Below are positions 1,138 to 11,806 of a stretch of DNA of 23,662 nt, piece by piece. The notes below the pieces were generated by a model that saw only the letters and a program-made list of their open reading frames with translations, was not told the DNA's origin and ran no database searches. The position numbers and the translations under genes are program-made. Location: positions 1 through 23,662 of the IMG/VR virus record IMGVR_UViG_3300049856_000086; one strand, written 5' to 3'. The number at the start of each line of letters is the position of its first letter. The stretch's first letter is position 1. The stretch comes from a virus.

Positions 1138-1358
1138 GCGAAGCTAATTGCGCACAGGAAACAAATAAAAGATATAAACTTAGAATGTCATTTAGAAATG
1201 TTAAATCAATTATTAAGTTTAATATATGGCGTGCTTTTTGGAGAACGCTTTGGTTTTTACATTTAGGGTGGCAATATTCTAAGTTAACTTGCCACTTAGG
1301 TATTTATAGAAAATTTCCAGATGGTCGATGTCAATATTGCGGAGTAAAACACAAATGA
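1134..1358 (+). CDS. Small basic protein with Cys/His C-terminus, unknown
   Basis: A 74-aa protein coupled at both ends: its ATG is inside the stop of the preceding gene, and its TGA overlaps the ATG of the HNH gene at 1355. GAGGTGAGG precedes the start. The centre is rich in aromatic and basic residues (WRAFWRTLWFLHLGW). The C-terminus contains C-H-L-G and then CQYCGVKH, giving two cysteines in a C-x-x-C pair with flanking Cys and His, like a minimal zinc-binding knuckle. Family not recognised. The aromatic stretch could also be membrane-active. Existence is well supported by the couplings; function is unknown. Confidence 0.55.
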   Translation: MSEANCAQETNKRYKLRMSFRNVKSIIKFNIWRAFWRTLWFLHLGWQYSKLTCHLGIYRKFPDGRCQYCGVKHK

Positions 1359-1954
1359 CCACCCCTAAAACCATGAGCGAGAAAGAAATTTGGAAAGAAA
1401 TACCAGGGTATTTTGGAAAATATGAAGCCTCAAGTAAGGGACGAATTAGGTCGTTATTTATTATAAATCGCAGTGCAAATAAAAAAAGATTAAATCCTTT
1501 AATTCTTTCTCAGTCATCTGGATATAATAACTATAAAATCGTCCAGCTATCCATAGGAAACAAAAGATCAACGCAGCTTGTTCACAGGCTAGTACTTTTG
1601 TCTTTTATTGTAAAAAACCATTCTTCGCAACAATGTTCGCATATAGACGGAAATTCAGAAAATAATAATATAAACAATTTAGAGTGGGCAAGTGCATCTA
1701 AAAATATACTTATGAAAAACATTCATGGGACGGTTCTTAATGGAGAAAAAAACTTACAGTCTAAATTAAAAGAAATCGAAGTTATTAAAATATGCAAAAG
1801 AATTATAAATGGGCATTCGTTTTCATCTATATCAAAAGATTATTGTGTTCATCAAAACACAATAAGAAGCATTTCTAACAAAAGACTATGGAAATATTTA
1901 ACAGATAAGCATTTTGGATTAAAAAATATTCGTGAGTTGAGAGGTATTGAGTGA
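1355..1954 (+). CDS. NUMOD4/HNH homing-type endonuclease
   Basis: About 199 residues from the ATG at 1355, chosen because it forms an ATGA overlap with the upstream stop; an earlier in-frame ATG at 1328 would overlap the neighbour more and lacks support. Order of parts: NUMOD4-like motif (residues 13-34, WKEIPGYFGKYEAS), HNH_3 nuclease (about residues 74-115) with LVHRLV (H77), CSHIDGN (H96) and NNLEW, then a C-terminal helix-turn-helix (about 140-180, FSSISKDYCVHQNTIRSI). This is the usual layout of free-standing phage homing endonucleases that cut phage-free relatives of the site and spread by repair. It is unusually well fitted into the operon, since its TGA overlaps the GTG of the next gene. 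Confidence 0.9.
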   Translation: MTTPKTMSEKEIWKEIPGYFGKYEASSKGRIRSLFIINRSANKKRLNPLILSQSSGYNNYKIVQLSIGNKRSTQLVHRLVLLSFIVKNHSSQQCSHIDGNSENNNINNLEWASASKNILMKNIHGTVLNGEKNLQSKLKEIEVIKICKRIINGHSFSSISKDYCVHQNTIRSISNKRLWKYLTDKHFGLKNIRELRGIE

Positions 1955-2159: not shown

Positions 2160-2684
2160 ATGCTTAGACAATTCATCGAATGGTTAATTAAATTACTTCA
2201 AGTTAAACTAGACACCCTTCCAAAAGAAGAACCAAAGACAGAGATTAAACCATCGGTACCGCCGATCAGCCATATCCCATGGTACGACATAGCCTTAAAA
2301 GAAGTGGGCACGAAAGAGACTGCTGGTGACGTTGATTCTAAGCGTGTTCTTGAATACCAGAAGGCCACGACATTAATGGCTACAGATGATGAGACTCCGT
2401 GGTGTTCTTCATTCGTATGCTGGTGCCTAGAAAAAGCAGGGTATAAATCGACTAACAGCTCATGGGCTAAGTCTTACTTAAAATACGGCACTGAGATGAC
2501 AACTCCGAAACAAGGATGTATCGCAGTCCTTACGCGTGGTCCAAAGAACGGACATGTGGCTTTTTATGTAGGACACAATGAAAATGGAACTGTATCTTTA
2601 CTTGGCGGTAATCAATCAAACTCTGTGTGCATTAAGAGTTATCCAGCCAGCATGATCTTAGGATATCGCTGGCCAGTTAAATAA
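2160..2684 (+). CDS. Endolysin, CHAP-like peptidase (TIGR02594 type)
   Basis: A 174-aa cell-wall hydrolase, probably cutting peptidoglycan peptide bonds or the amide link for host lysis. The domain covers residues 39-174: IPWYDIALKEVGTKE, catalytic Cys in TPWCSSFVCWCL (C82), His in NGHVAFYVG (H132), and an LGGNQSN motif (N151), ending in YPASMILGYRWP. This order and these motifs fit the TIGR02594 NlpC/P60/CHAP-related family common in phages. The first 20 residues (MLRQFIEWLIKLLQVKL) are amphipathic-hydrophobic and are followed by a Pro/Lys/Glu linker. They could be a signal-anchor or a wall-binding helix; this is uncertain. It is the last gene of the + strand operon, and its stop abuts the stop of a convergent virion gene. 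Confidence 0.88.
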   Translation: MLRQFIEWLIKLLQVKLDTLPKEEPKTEIKPSVPPISHIPWYDIALKEVGTKETAGDVDSKRVLEYQKATTLMATDDETPWCSSFVCWCLEKAGYKSTNSSWAKSYLKYGTEMTTPKQGCIAVLTRGPKNGHVAFYVGHNENGTVSLLGGNQSNSVCIKSYPASMILGYRWPVK

Positions 2685-3011
2685 TTAGTAACCGTTAGTG
2701 AATTGAACGCCTTGAACTTCGATCTTTACTCGAGATCCGGTGACTGTATTTGCGTTAAGTCCAAAGTTAGGACCAATGTAGATCTGTTCAAAAAACTGTG
2801 ATCCTGATCCTGTAGAAGTATATAGAACCTGCCCACCGATTGTCACCGTACCACCAGCGCCAGTACCACCGATGTCTGTGCATCTGATCCAGACGACAGC
2901 ATAAGAGTCTACAGGAGTTGTGTGAGCCGTTGCGAATCCTGAACCGCCAGGAGAGGTTACTGTGTTGTTAATCCCTGAACTAACTGCTGGGACATTGCTA
3001 TAAGTTGCGAT
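2685..3011 (-). CDS. Small tail-associated protein, apparent ATC start
   Basis: An open frame of 108 codons reads (I/M)ATYSNVPAVSSGIN at the start and KIEVQGVQFTNGY at the end. It is rich in Gly/Thr/Ser with beta-type patterning, like the neighbouring tail proteins. A perfect GGAGG (3017-3021) lies 5 nt before ATC (3009-3011). In the same frame a TAG sits directly upstream (3021-3023), so translation cannot enter from the preceding gene. No ATG, GTG or TTG occurs before a GTG at about codon 56. The ATC is therefore the most likely start, unless a sequencing error changed an ATG. Likely a virion or receptor-binding accessory protein at the 3' end of the tail operon. Family not recognised. Confidence 0.65.
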   Translation of the reverse strand: MATYSNVPAVSSGINNTVTSPGGSGFATAHTTPVDSYAVVWIRCTDIGGTGAGGTVTIGGQVLYTSTGSGSQFFEQIYIGPNFGLNANTVTGSRVKIEVQGVQFTNGY

Positions 3012-3016
3012 AGTAG

Positions 3017-3021
3017 CCTCC
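3017..3021 (-). promoter_or_regulatory. Strong Shine-Dalgarno before a non-canonical start
   Basis: On the minus strand GGAGG is followed by CTACT and then ATC. The spacing of 5 nt is optimal, and this is what places the start of the 108-aa gene at ATC 3011 in the absence of any standard start codon. Confidence 0.7.
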
Positions 3022-3024
3022 TAA

Positions 3025-3561
3025 TTATCTAGGTCTAAAGCCGATTGAAAGTCCACAGTTCTGAGCTAATACCTGAACCGCGTCGATGTTTAAAACCAAC
3101 ATGTCACCTGCATTTAAATTCACTGTAGACAATACGGGTAGCGTAGTGCCAGAAGGGTTTTCTAAAGCAGTTGATGTTACAAAGTTATAAGAAACATAAG
3201 CGTAATTTCCTGCAGTAAAACTTATTGAGGGCTTAACTGAGAAAATACTTGTACCGCCAGCAGGTGTATTACTGGACGTGTATCTACGAATATCTATTGT
3301 CGTAGTTCCTGAAGTGCCAGCGATTAAATTATACATAGACACAGCACTGATCTCGACATCGGCCTCAAAGATAATAGCACCGTCAAGGCCCGGACCCGTT
3401 TTGTATGGACCGTTAGCTTTAAAGTCCCATCGAACATATTGAGAATCGTTAATGAAATTAGTAGATGCGCCGACTCTTTTGAGTAAGGCCTCTGACACAG
3501 AAGCTTTGTAATTTGTCTCAGCCTCTTGGATGTTAATTCTTTGTGGAGCAATATCTACCAT
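3025..3561 (-). CDS. Tail structural protein, unknown (178 aa)
   Basis: Starts at ATG 3561 with AAAGGA 5 nt upstream. The N-terminus (MVDIAPQRINIQEAETNYKA) is helical. The rest is a beta-rich, Gly/Thr/Ser-heavy domain ending DAVQVLAQNCGLSIGFRPR, a pattern often seen at the end of phage tail-tip or receptor-binding proteins. It lies between the large hub protein and the small terminal tail gene, in the same direction. It is probably a virion protein attached to the tail tip. Not assigned to a named family. Confidence 0.6.
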   Translation of the reverse strand: MVDIAPQRINIQEAETNYKASVSEALLKRVGASTNFINDSQYVRWDFKANGPYKTGPGLDGAIIFEADVEISAVSMYNLIAGTSGTTTIDIRRYTSSNTPAGGTSIFSVKPSISFTAGNYAYVSYNFVTSTALENPSGTTLPVLSTVNLNAGDMLVLNIDAVQVLAQNCGLSIGFRPR

Positions 3562-3573
3562 GACAATCCTTTG

Positions 3574-6018
3574 TTATAACACGCGATAAGGCAAAGCTTT
3601 ATCAGGAAAACCGATAAGCTCTATGAACTCTCCTGCTGATGGGACAAATCCTAATGATCCATCTACAGTTATCGTGTTTCCAGTAATATCGTTGACCAAA
3701 ACTTCTGGGCTGTCATTAGTAAAATCGTCGTTATGAATGCGGACAATCGAGCCCACAAAGATCTTACCTACATCACCAGCGCCTACGTCAAAGACAGTAG
3801 TCGAGGCCCCTGATACAATTTCGATCTGAGGATTAAAGTGAGCATACAAGAGCTTGTGAATAGCCTCTTCTCTTGCGTCTGTGCTAGATGGATATTGAGA
3901 TATGTCCACGATATAATCAGCAGGAGGAGCTATTGAAAGGCTAGGGCTTACTAACATTCTATAATCATTTGAAGGTTCAAACCCTGTTAGGGTGACCTCT
4001 TCATAAAATGACCAGTCTTGTGAGTGGACTGCGATCCTTAATCCAATGCTCGAAGACCATTTATCTTTTTCTTTATTAGGGAATGTCGTTGAGAAAGAAT
4101 CCTTTATTACAATTGAATCAACTGTAGAACCAGTATCAACATAAGAACTAGGAGCAATGACACCATATCTACCATCGATTTCAAATCCCGTAGACAATAA
4201 ATCTAGCGAGACGTCCCCTGTTTTAATGTTTAAAGACTTGTTCACGACCTCATACAACTGAGGCTGAGTATCTCGATTACCTTCTAAAATATCTGATACC
4301 TTAAGGGCAGCTGATCCAAAGACAACGGTGTCGCCGACATCGATAGGATAGCCAGTCTTGAATAATGTTTTAAGCCCACTGATTTTCTGAGCTGCAAACT
4401 GATACCTATCTAATAATCTCTGTGAGTTAGTTCTTAAGATAGCGTCGTTCTGATTAGAAGGTCTCAATCCTTTAGACTCAATGATCAAAGGCTTGTTGCG
4501 AATGGCTTTGAATCTAGACTGAGAGTCAGCAGAGAACGTTACGCTGCCAGTTAGAAACTTATCCTCTAGCAACGCCTTATCATATTTGTAGATTACTGAA
4601 TTATAAAACCCTTGATTCACTGAACGTGTAGGGCTTATCTCTCCTGGATCAACGACCGTATTCTCATCGAGGATTCTAATCTCTTGATCTGCAATGGGCG
4701 GTAGTGTTAGACCAACCGAAGCCGATGCTTGTCTAGGTAATGAATAAAAGTTAGCTGGAAAATATATCTCTTTTGATAAGAATTCTTTCCCGTCGATCTC
4801 GTCCTCTAAATAGAAAGTGTAATCGGGAATGTTAGCAGAGAATCTTTCTACCATCTGCTCATGCCTTGCCACGTCAACATCATCTATAGACATCCCAAGA
4901 CCTTCGGCCATGGTCGCGTATTTAGAAACAAAGGCCACGGTTGCGGGTGAGCCAAACTCTAAACTTAAGTCCTGATTAACAGAGACCCAAGAGCCTAGAT
5001 CGTTCTGTCCAAAGCCAGTGATAAAAAGACCAGAGATGTTATTCCCGCCGATCAGAGATCCAGAGATGTTGACCTTATCGCCAACAACTAATCCATATTT
5101 TCTTTGAGTGTTGGGATAGCTAAAGAATATCACCCTTGGATCTAAGTCCGTAGGCCCCTTGGCACCGATGTTATTAATCGATGTTGTGGCGTATTCAAAC
5201 GGTTGAGAGAGCATAAGCTTAAGCGCCAGCTCAATAGCCGTTCCTTGTAGTGAGTAGAATGTAGATACCTCGTCACCGATTGCATGAGAGGCCGCTACAG
5301 TTCCTAACTGCCCACGGGTTAATCCTGTGAACTGAGTGCTAGACTTAGTAGGTGCTTGAATAATTTCATCATTGATCTTGATATAAGACTTAAGGTTGGC
5401 ATCGTTCGATGAGATAAAACCGTTTGTAGTCAGGACAGATACAGTTGTATCCCCTGGGCTTACAATCGCTGACAACTTAGAGGTTTGTTTAATGAATAGT
5501 TTTTGTCTCTTCTGCTGCTCAGGATGGGCAATAGTAAAGGCAATAGTTGCTGCTTTACTAGACACCTCTGAGATTATTCCCTTTAAGATGATAACAGAAT
5601 CCTCAGGATGAAGGCCGTCACCATAGTTAAAGTAAACTATAGCCTTCTTACTCAAGATTTCATCTAACACAAATCCAGGACTAATGATCTTAGTGATCTC
5701 GCCGTTCTTATCTAGAAGCTCTATCTTAAGCGAGGACACGCTTTGACTTGACCCCTTGTCTTGTTCTAATTGCTGATTAATCGTCGATCCTGAGCCAGAT
5801 AAAGAGATGTAGGGCTTGATTGTTTCATCTGCTACAGAACCACCAAACACAAGTCCAGGCTGTCCGAAGTAAATATGATTCTCTCCAAACCTGGCATATT
5901 CCAAAGTGTCGAGCGCAGAATAGAGATTAGGCAAGCCTTCGATCTCAAGAATAATATTAGGAGAGATATTTCGTTGTGCGTTAAGGAGTCTAGCTCTAGC
6001 CGATAATTCTAAAGCCAT
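3574..6018 (-). CDS. Large tail hub / tail-tip protein
   Basis: 814 residues, with its ATG overlapping the previous stop (TAATG). The N-terminal part reads ALELSARARLLNAQRNISP and then a segment with NQQLEQDKGSSQSVSSLKI and ELLDKNGEITKIISPG, followed by alternating beta domains. I recall such beginnings in large tail-hub or baseplate-hub-like proteins of uncultured siphoviruses. The mid-region holds TIKPY-, FSYP- and DVDVARHEQMVERF-type segments and the C-terminus is beta-rich (SIVRIHNDDFTNDSPEVLV). Role by size and position: central tail-tip protein that closes the tube and carries fibres, analogous to lambda J or the Tal proteins. No lysozyme or peptidase motif seen. Class call is moderate. 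Confidence 0.65.
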   Translation of the reverse strand: MALELSARARLLNAQRNISPNIILEIEGLPNLYSALDTLEYARFGENHIYFGQPGLVFGGSVADETIKPYISLSGSGSTINQQLEQDKGSSQSVSSLKIELLDKNGEITKIISPGFVLDEILSKKAIVYFNYGDGLHPEDSVIILKGIISEVSSKAATIAFTIAHPEQQKRQKLFIKQTSKLSAIVSPGDTTVSVLTTNGFISSNDANLKSYIKINDEIIQAPTKSSTQFTGLTRGQLGTVAASHAIGDEVSTFYSLQGTAIELALKLMLSQPFEYATTSINNIGAKGPTDLDPRVIFFSYPNTQRKYGLVVGDKVNISGSLIGGNNISGLFITGFGQNDLGSWVSVNQDLSLEFGSPATVAFVSKYATMAEGLGMSIDDVDVARHEQMVERFSANIPDYTFYLEDEIDGKEFLSKEIYFPANFYSLPRQASASVGLTLPPIADQEIRILDENTVVDPGEISPTRSVNQGFYNSVIYKYDKALLEDKFLTGSVTFSADSQSRFKAIRNKPLIIESKGLRPSNQNDAILRTNSQRLLDRYQFAAQKISGLKTLFKTGYPIDVGDTVVFGSAALKVSDILEGNRDTQPQLYEVVNKSLNIKTGDVSLDLLSTGFEIDGRYGVIAPSSYVDTGSTVDSIVIKDSFSTTFPNKEKDKWSSSIGLRIAVHSQDWSFYEEVTLTGFEPSNDYRMLVSPSLSIAPPADYIVDISQYPSSTDAREEAIHKLLYAHFNPQIEIVSGASTTVFDVGAGDVGKIFVGSIVRIHNDDFTNDSPEVLVNDITGNTITVDGSLGFVPSAGEFIELIGFPDKALPYRVL

Positions 6019-9343: not shown

Positions 9344-11262
9344 GCTGTTCTCACCGCTACGCCTTGCTGATCAAATGCGTCGTTAAGTATTTGTGTAATT
9401 CTTAGTCCAGTTTCAGCAGTATCAAAAACATTTCCTTGAATTGTAACAGCTACTTTAGTCACTGGTTCAACTGGCTTGTTGTCTACAACGTCAGTCGCAG
9501 CCCCAGGAGCAGTAGCAACACCACCACCACTTGGACTTGCAGCAACGCCGCCTCCGCCTGCGCCAGATGCACTTGCTGAACCTCCTCCGCTTGCCGCAAG
9601 AACTCCTCCGGCAACTGCCAAAGCTCCACCAGCCGCGATAAGAGATGGGCCATTAGGTAGGCCCGCAAATAAATAAGCTAAACCTTGAAGGATAAATGTA
9701 GTTCCTAATTGAACTGCGATCTGTCCAATTGTCTGTAAGAGAGCATCTCCGAAAGCCTTAAGTCCGTCTTCGCCTTTTTGTAGTGCCTTACCAACATTAG
9801 AAAATGCTTGTCCAACGCCTTGGCCGAAAGTTTGAAAAGCTGCTTTTCCTGCTTCAGCGAAATTCTTATTAGCAGTAGCTGCAAAATCAGTTGCTGCTGT
9901 TTCAAAACCAGAAACAAATTGTTGAAATCCTTGGGATATGCCAACATAAGTATTATTAAACTCTCGCGCATTGTTTTTTAAATTAGTGCCAAGCCCATCT
10001 TGAGCTATCTTGGCTTGTTCTATCTGAGACTTATAATTCTCTAACCAAATTGCAACGCTGCCAGAAAACTCACCATTGAATGCGGTGTCTGCCCGTGCAG
10101 ATATCTCTCCGAAAGACTTAGAAGCTCTTTCTTTGGTTGCTTCAAACTCATTATTCAAAGGAGCTGTTAGCCCGTTTGCTATGTTAGCTATTCCAGATTT
10201 TAATTTATTACCAAGATCAGAATTAACGAGACCGACTATCTCTGCATATCCAGTGGCGATAGTAGAAAATACTTCTACAAAACTATTAACTAAAAGACTT
10301 GCAAGACCAGATACTCCAACCGCTAGAACATTTAACGAAAGACCTATAGTCTGAAATCCTATAACAAAGTTTTTAACGAATGTTTCTACAACGGGAAGTA
10401 TATATTTTGCAATAATCAAACCTATGTCTGCTAATTTTAAAACAAAACTATCAACAAATCCCTGATTAGATAAAGACTCTAATGTTTTTGAAAAGTTACC
10501 AAGAAGAATTGCAGCAATGTTAAGTGTTTCTTTTATGGCTGGTGATTTTGTTACCAGCTCACCAAGAGCTTGAAGAACATTTTTAAATTGTAGATCTACT
10601 TTAGCCAAAGATCCTGCAAACGTATCTGCTGCTTGAGCCCCTTGACCGCCAAACTTTTGTTCGATGATAGCAAGTGCGCCAGCAAATCTTTGAGACTTTG
10701 GAAGCGTCTCATCTATTTTTATACCGTATCTAGAAAGAGCCGCAGTATTTCCTGCTGCAGCCTTAGCTAATAACTCAAACGCGCTAGAGGTATCTATTCC
10801 AAGACCAGCTGCAAGATCTAGAGAAGCATTCGTAGCTCTTTCTAGTCCTTGTCCAGACAGCCGCCCTAAAGAAACCAGTAACGCCGACTGCTCTAAAATA
10901 ACGTCTGCGCTTATGGCTCTTGTTTTTTCTAATGAGTCCGCATAATCAAGAAAAGATTTACTTGTTTGTTCTGAATATAAACCATTGTTAGCGAGCGCTA
11001 GATTGAATCTTTTAACTGCACCTTCTGCCTGTATAGCCTCATCAATTCCATGGCCTAAAGTATCGAATAGTTTTCTCGCTGCTAAAGATGCAAGATCAAA
11101 TCCAGCTTTTAAATCAGCAAGTCCTTTGATCTGAAATGGTGACGAGAATGCACTCTCAACATTCTTACCAGTTTGCTCAACAACCTTATTAACTTGCCCT
11201 AGGCCCTTAATTACACTGCCATTGTCTAAGGTTATGGTTATCTGTAATTCTTCATTAGCCAT
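9340..11262 (-). CDS. Tail tape-measure protein
   Basis: 640 residues, with its start overlapping the GT chaperone stop (TAATG). The composition is typical: long helical, Ala/Leu/Ser/Asn-rich, with the common tape-measure motif GNTAALSRYGIKIDE near residues 171-185, hydrophobic stretches at about 280-345 (LLVNSFVEVFSTIATGYAEIV) and about 520-555. The extreme C-terminal region is a Gly/Ser/Ala low-complexity run (about 558-590). Sets tail length and is threaded through the tube to the host membrane. At about 1.5 angstrom per residue, the family rule suggests a tail near 95 nm (inference). Its position after the G/GT genes agrees. Confidence 0.93.
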   Translation of the reverse strand: MANEELQITITLDNGSVIKGLGQVNKVVEQTGKNVESAFSSPFQIKGLADLKAGFDLASLAARKLFDTLGHGIDEAIQAEGAVKRFNLALANNGLYSEQTSKSFLDYADSLEKTRAISADVILEQSALLVSLGRLSGQGLERATNASLDLAAGLGIDTSSAFELLAKAAAGNTAALSRYGIKIDETLPKSQRFAGALAIIEQKFGGQGAQAADTFAGSLAKVDLQFKNVLQALGELVTKSPAIKETLNIAAILLGNFSKTLESLSNQGFVDSFVLKLADIGLIIAKYILPVVETFVKNFVIGFQTIGLSLNVLAVGVSGLASLLVNSFVEVFSTIATGYAEIVGLVNSDLGNKLKSGIANIANGLTAPLNNEFEATKERASKSFGEISARADTAFNGEFSGSVAIWLENYKSQIEQAKIAQDGLGTNLKNNAREFNNTYVGISQGFQQFVSGFETAATDFAATANKNFAEAGKAAFQTFGQGVGQAFSNVGKALQKGEDGLKAFGDALLQTIGQIAVQLGTTFILQGLAYLFAGLPNGPSLIAAGGALAVAGGVLAASGGGSASASGAGGGGVAASPSGGGVATAPGAATDVVDNKPVEPVTKVAVTIQGNVFDTAETGLRITQILNDAFDQQGVAVRTA

Positions 11263-11806
11263 TAAGCAGAACCCTTCATTAAGGCGTTAGCAAGCGTTTC
11301 GGCACTTACTTTTTTTCCTTCTTTAAAGATATCAGGATAGGCTTTTTTGTAAAGCTGCTTATGTAGGCGCTCTTTGCCTCTAGGCTTTTGGTTGTTCCAG
11401 TCTTGAACAGTAATTTGTTTAAGCATTTCCTGAGCCTCGATTACAGTAATCATTTCCCAGTATTCCACAAACTCATCAAGCGGTAGATTTTTTACTTCAG
11501 AGAAGCTAAGCCCGTAAAAGTATGCGAACTTAGCTATCTCATAGGAGTGACTATCTATTTTTTTTTAGGATTAATTAAAAATTCAATAAGGCCTGAGTAG
11601 TCTTCAGCTTCCATAGATCCAAGGACATCATAAGACATCCCTAGACCTACAAGAAACTCTTTTGAACTCTCGATATCATCGAAATTTTCTGACTTCATTT
11701 TCTCTCTATATTCTTTTACTTGGTCCACTGTAGGCTTGCTGACAGAAAACTCTTGACCATAGATTGAAACTTTAAGCGCAGGTTTCTTTTCAACCGAAAA
11801 ATCCAT
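11262..11806 (-). CDS. Tail assembly chaperone GT, made by -1 frameshift
   Basis: The frame after the G protein continues, shifted -1, without a stop from 11558 to TAA 11262-11264 (98 codons). The join is at A AAA AAA (11564-11558). Fusion length is about 181 residues: 83 from G plus IDSHSYEIAKFAYF and a T domain with FVEYWEMITVIEAQEML and ending LANALMKGSA. The frame relation was checked: G codons have lower coordinate 2 mod 3, T codons 0 mod 3, exactly a -1 slip on this strand. A separate GTG start at 11468 is thus unnecessary. GT acts with G to chaperone the tape measure during tail assembly, as in lambda. The next gene is the tape measure. Confidence 0.85.
11504..11535 (-). promoter_or_regulatory. 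Inverted repeat downstream of the frameshift site
   Basis: Minus-strand AGCTAAG (11535-11529) pairs perfectly with CTTAGCT (11510-11504) around an 18-nt loop. It starts 22 nt after the slippery run, farther than the usual 5-9 nt, so a stimulatory role is only possible. Confidence 0.35.
11555..11806 (-). CDS. Tail assembly chaperone G
   Basis: 83 residues, ATG 11806 with GGAG 5 nt before it, ending in CCT-AAA-AAA-AAA-TAG. Starts MDFSVEKKPALKVSIYGQEF and is acidic/helical toward the end (SGLIEFLINPKKK). The small size, position between the tail tube and tape-measure genes, and the slippery run of nine A at its end identify it as the G-type chaperone. A fraction of ribosomes slip back to make GT; the unshifted product ends at TAG 11555. 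Confidence 0.85.
   Translation of the reverse strand: MDFSVEKKPALKVSIYGQEFSVSKPTVDQVKEYREKMKSENFDDIESSKEFLVGLGMSYDVLGSMEAEDYSGLIEFLINPKKK
11558..11566 (-). promoter_or_regulatory. Programmed -1 ribosomal frameshift slippery site
   Basis: Nine A residues on the minus strand (nine T on the + strand) precede the TAG of the G gene directly. They provide A-AAA-AAA in the 0 frame, a known slippery heptamer. The downstream -1 frame is fully open and carries the T domain. The length of the run could also support transcriptional slippage. Confidence 0.8.

Follow-up and report, generated by a model that had tools for sequence, protein, structure and literature searches.

An ATC codon at the start position of a small tail-module gene of an uncultured phage, aligned with ATG in its homologues

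Results

Gene order at the distal end of the tail operon

The window analysed here is an entire IMG/VR record of 23,662 bases, a metagenome-derived contig carrying a tailed-phage fragment of an uncultured virus. Genes for terminase, portal, scaffold and major capsid proteins lie at its right end and the tail module extends leftward from them, all on the minus strand. These structural and tail genes face a plus-strand block with a CHAP lysin. Attempts at host assignment yielded no host. An earlier note on this DNA had described the product of the frame studied here as a tail protein encoded next to a convergent operon, and this location is borne out: at the distal end of the tail operon, an 814-aa tail protein is followed by a 178-aa protein and then by a 108-codon frame that abuts the lysin gene. 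The features of the locus are as follows.

2685..3011, minus strand: 108-codon gene for a small beta-rich tail-module protein, with an ATC start and a TAA stop at 2685-2687; identified by coding usage and ATG-started homologues
3009..3011, minus strand: ATC in place of the ATG with which homologues start; from the sequence and the homologue alignment
3017..3022, minus strand: Shine-Dalgarno sequence AGGAGG, 5 nt before ATC; from the sequence
3021..3023, minus strand: in-frame TAG directly upstream, barring in-frame entry from farther upstream; from the sequence
3025..3561, minus strand: preceding 178-aa gene, whose homologues in relatives directly precede ATG-started counterparts
3574..6018, minus strand: gene for the 814-aa tail protein (PHROG tail families), a syntenic anchor in at least 11 relatives
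2160..2684, plus strand: convergent CHAP-domain lysin gene, whose last base (2684) adjoins the last base of the 108-codon gene

Two genes resembling NUMOD4/HNH-type homing endonucleases (93-659 and 1328-1954, plus strand) lie within the plus-strand block. At 11262-11806 on the minus strand there is a classical tail-assembly-chaperone -1 frameshift, with an A9 run (11558-11566) just before the stop of an 83-aa gene and a -1 frame that is open up to the tape-measure gene. The A-run (8-9 A) and the overlapping -1 frame are kept at the same place in five relatives, and the GTG at 11468 in this region is probably not a start.

The 108-codon frame is a gene

Read directly on the minus strand, the start region is AGA TAA TTAGGAGG CTACT ATC GCA ACT TAT AGC, that is, the TAA stop of the 178-aa gene, TT, AGGAGG, CTACT and then the ATC codon. 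The frame is open from 3020 to its TAA, and the first in-frame ATG, GTG or TTG is a GTG at 2846, codon 56 of 108. This reading confirms what had been described earlier, a frame lacking standard starts up to codon 56 with a Shine-Dalgarno sequence 5 nt before ATC. By itself, the AGGAGG-N5-ATC motif is weak evidence, occurring once in the window against 0.18 expected and at least once in 16 of 100 shuffles. The length of the open frame is likewise weak evidence for a gene by itself: random Markov windows each hold 2.5 frames of at least 111 codons, and 0.13 with a headless stretch of at least 55. Codon usage is more telling. It exceeds background by 0.30 per codon, uniformly from end to end (the first 20 codons give +0.29), compared with -0.19 to -0.72 in the other five frames at the locus; most other long genes of the window fall between +0.1 and +0.4. 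As coding usage is strong and the N-termini of homologues coincide with the ATC codon (see below), the 108-codon frame is a real gene, as the earlier note had held.

Could ribosomes enter this gene elsewhere? Translation of the adjacent 178-aa gene does run into this region, and a -1 frameshift does occur at another place in the window. However, the TAA at 3025-3027 that ends the 178-aa gene and the in-frame TAGs at 3021-3023 and 3036-3038, upstream of ATC, bar such entry; the sequence thereby excludes frameshift, read-through and hopping alike, which upholds the earlier exclusion of upstream entry. A start at the GTG of codon 56 would give 53 aa, but both the coding signal and the homology run from codon 1, so it cannot be the main start. 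In relatives, moreover, the counterparts are separate ATG-started genes. We regard entry at any of these other points as barely credible.

Homologues start with ATG at the aligned codon

Searches with the single protein were empty in phages, plasmids, viral_contigs, genome_contigs, PDB sequences, PHROGs and Pfam. A degenerate DNA pattern of the ATG version had no match, and sequence and DNA-pattern searches found no second record of the same virus. Only synteny led to homologues, with the 814-aa, 254-aa, portal and capsid proteins as anchors and subsequent searches of whole records. Two weak matches within long frames, L069 and L126 (E about 5e-4, 14.7 bits), were not counted as homologues; for L069 no alignment gave support.

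Six records (G055, G088, G085, G068, G082 and G091) have, immediately after their counterpart of the 178-aa gene, a gene whose product is 100-145 aa long. These six positional counterparts encode small beta-rich proteins with ATG starts (N-termini MSQA, MATS, MSTY, MASA, MSTF and MSTY), most of which carry a YTVPAxxYA-like motif. Closer homologues are found in G089 (L159) and G094 (L160), upstream of the 814-aa counterpart: MATYSNNTTIKF and MATYSSNTTIKI. The L160 protein begins MATYSSNTTIK and that of L159 MATYSNNTTIK, while the window reads (I)ATYSNVPAVSS. The A-T-Y-S after the start is thus identical, and the ATG of both genes aligns with the window ATC, at exactly the codon from which the earlier note had the gene begin. 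The distance from AGGAG to the start in L159 is 6 nt, equal to that in the window.

The L160 protein matches the window protein at 37% over 83 aa (E 4e-10 in a two-sequence comparison). Its local score of 97 compares with a shuffled maximum of 71, and without the N-terminus the values are 92 and 68, with 0 of 2,000 shuffles reaching the score in either case; as the score survives removal of the N-terminus, this homology is independent of the start region. For L159 the similarity is mainly N-terminal, its score being reached by 3 of 2,000 shuffles with the N-terminus and by 232 of 2,000 without it. A profile of the six positional counterparts, built without the window protein, did not recover that protein in a whole-record scan. 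The case for direct homology is therefore carried by L160, to a lesser degree by L159, and by synteny.

Two more distant records (G073 and G051) have a small gene in the same gene order, with N-termini MANT and MSNT. Together with the two homologues and the six positional counterparts, this gives an ATG start in 10 of 10 counterparts and ATC in none. The earlier note had proposed a search for homologues and their start codons as a check; those found through synteny start at the same codon, all with ATG. If the gene is translated, the start site would be the codon at 3009-3011. From the presence of ATG in all ten counterparts it follows that ATG was the ancestral start, and the ATC is a one-base departure (G to C) rather than a conserved AUC start.

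In G089 (L159:1388-3501) and G094 (L160:1400-3701), the interval between a tail-fibre-like gene and the 814-aa counterpart holds the homologue together with a lysin gene and small membrane-like genes. The 108-aa gene has thus changed place within the tail/lysis module. Between the 178-aa gene and its counterparts in G002 (L050:2570-3364) and G036 (L051:8263-9135), similarity is confined to the first ~40 residues, the remainder of the counterparts being a glycine-rich domain; a tail-tip module swap behind a conserved N-terminal adaptor is likely here.

The predicted product is a small beta protein

The counterparts belong to an unnamed set of small tail-module beta proteins from related IMG/VR phages, characterized by the YTVPAxxYA motif. 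The window protein resembles them in length and in position, as its gene, like those of most members, lies directly after the 178-aa gene or its counterpart. Several members have the N-terminus M[AS]T[YSF], and the motif is matched by HTTPVDSYA in the window protein. In contrast to the window gene, all members are ATG-started, and they are only 12-37% identical to the window protein.

An AlphaFold2 model of the 108-aa protein is all-beta, with low confidence (mean pLDDT 61). Fold searches with this model gave no significant match: the best structure match has a Z of 7.3, within the range of common arrangements, and the best Foldseek hit has an E of 0.004 but superposes poorly. A 107-aa virion protein of Microcystis phage MaMV-DC was matched at E 0.017 and TM 0.48. 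Given the operon position, the shared motif, the absence from the locus in some relatives and the all-beta model, the product is probably a small accessory beta-sandwich tail-tip protein of an unnamed family. Its genomic position and the low-confidence beta-sandwich model suggest a location in the virion, and we infer a receptor or tail-tip function.

Origin of the ATC codon

Upstream of 31 window genes, AGGAGG is present in 3, the 108-codon gene and two others. As those two pair AGGAGG with ATG, the idea that a stronger Shine-Dalgarno sequence compensates for a weak ATC codon is only suggestive. In a relative, L140 has a longer Shine-Dalgarno match (TAAGGAG) with an ATG start. The mRNA is not predicted to fold with unusual strength around the start (z 1.43), and therefore no structural switch is suggested.

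The tail gene is ordinary except for a single base that departs from ATG, be it real or an artefact. An artefact could have arisen as an error of consensus or assembly, or through a minor variant chosen for the consensus; the virus itself would then have ATG at 3009-3011 and the gene would be ordinary. The earlier note rightly named a single ATG-to-ATC sequencing error as an alternative, and the ATG in all ten homologues favours it. One substitution suffices, the record is a metagenome-derived IMG/VR contig, and sampling many windows for odd starts enriches errors. Against this, about 25 other genes of the structural operon look intact, weak evidence since substitution errors are otherwise invisible. 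No other broken gene is seen there, and the sole other oddity, the only headless downstream gene, is the conserved programmed frameshift described above. Among 167 gene starts of relatives from comparable assemblies, none lacks a standard start near the aligned start, a figure that sets a limit on errors and real odd starts taken together but does not separate the two. We consider an error quite possible.

Alternatively, the base change could be real and silencing. An accessory tail gene would then have lost its start and be a nascent pseudogene that yields next to no product. Some relatives dispense with the gene at this locus: it is absent after the 178-aa counterpart in L050 (G002), L051 (G036), L144 (G094) and L145 (G089), with the qualifier that G094 and G089 carry a homologue elsewhere. 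Yet the frame and its codon usage are intact to the end of the gene, the strong Shine-Dalgarno sequence is kept and there is no second lesion, which makes silencing unlikely.

The explanation that we favour, tentatively, is a real AUC start with some translation from 3009-3011; the weights that we attach to these explanations are judgement, not measurement. Weighing against this start, ATC is common to no homologue, and one wrong base in a metagenome contig would look identical.

Discussion

In the favoured explanation, AGGAGG would place the ribosome at the AUC, where fMet-tRNA would initiate through a third-position mismatch that IF3 discriminates against. Protein yield would then be low, and any expression would depend on the strong Shine-Dalgarno sequence. 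AUC is among the natural bacterial starts discriminated against by IF3 (PMC4611024), which disfavours weak third-position pairs in vitro (PMC10158994). In Staphylococcus aureus, infC, cvfC1 and ccpN have AUU and AUA starts with extended Shine-Dalgarno sequences, and expression from the non-canonical sites tested was about 10% of that from AUG, with up to 30% at one of them (PMC13009471).

The ATC would represent a lineage-specific downgrade of the start codon rather than a conserved regulatory device. The earlier note had suggested that ATC could throttle expression of the tail protein. This finds no support, as the codon is not conserved (ATG in 10 of 10 counterparts), whereas regulatory non-canonical starts elsewhere tend toward conservation (PMC13009471), a trait that need not hold for AUC starts in general. 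The fuller proposal, in which a phage structural gene is naturally AUC-started and its strong Shine-Dalgarno sequence makes up for the weak codon, keeping an accessory tail-tip protein at low copy by design, is in our judgement unlikely. Also weighing against a real AUC start, departures of this kind are scarce: among 61,358 reconstructed ancestral AUG starts, two changed to CUG, one to AUU and none to AUC, although annotation bias may hide some, and switches other than to GUG or UUG are very rare (PMC5622118).

Start codons other than ATG, GTG and TTG are mostly ignored by gene callers, which would miss a real ATC gene or cut it to its last 53 codons. If the start is confirmed, a phage structural gene would join the short list of AUC starts, and the locus would serve as a natural experiment on the rescue, by a strong Shine-Dalgarno sequence, of a codon rejected by IF3. 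The ATG-started homologues, for their part, outline an unannotated pair of small tail genes in related uncultured phages.

AUC starts as such are already known. The gene for IF3, infC, has AUU, AUC or AUA as its start codon in bacteria, with ATC in Streptomyces (PMC5472188) and AUA in S. aureus (PMC13009471), and shares with the window gene a non-canonical AUH start. In infC, however, the odd start gives autoregulation, while the homologues of the window gene all have ATG and the gene has no known regulatory link. A second comparison is the AUA start of S. aureus citZ in NCTC 8325-derived strains (PMC13009471). The citZ start was confirmed by ribosome profiling and reporters, whereas the window gene is known from one assembled sequence; with the window read at face value, both are single-lineage departures in an otherwise ordinary gene.
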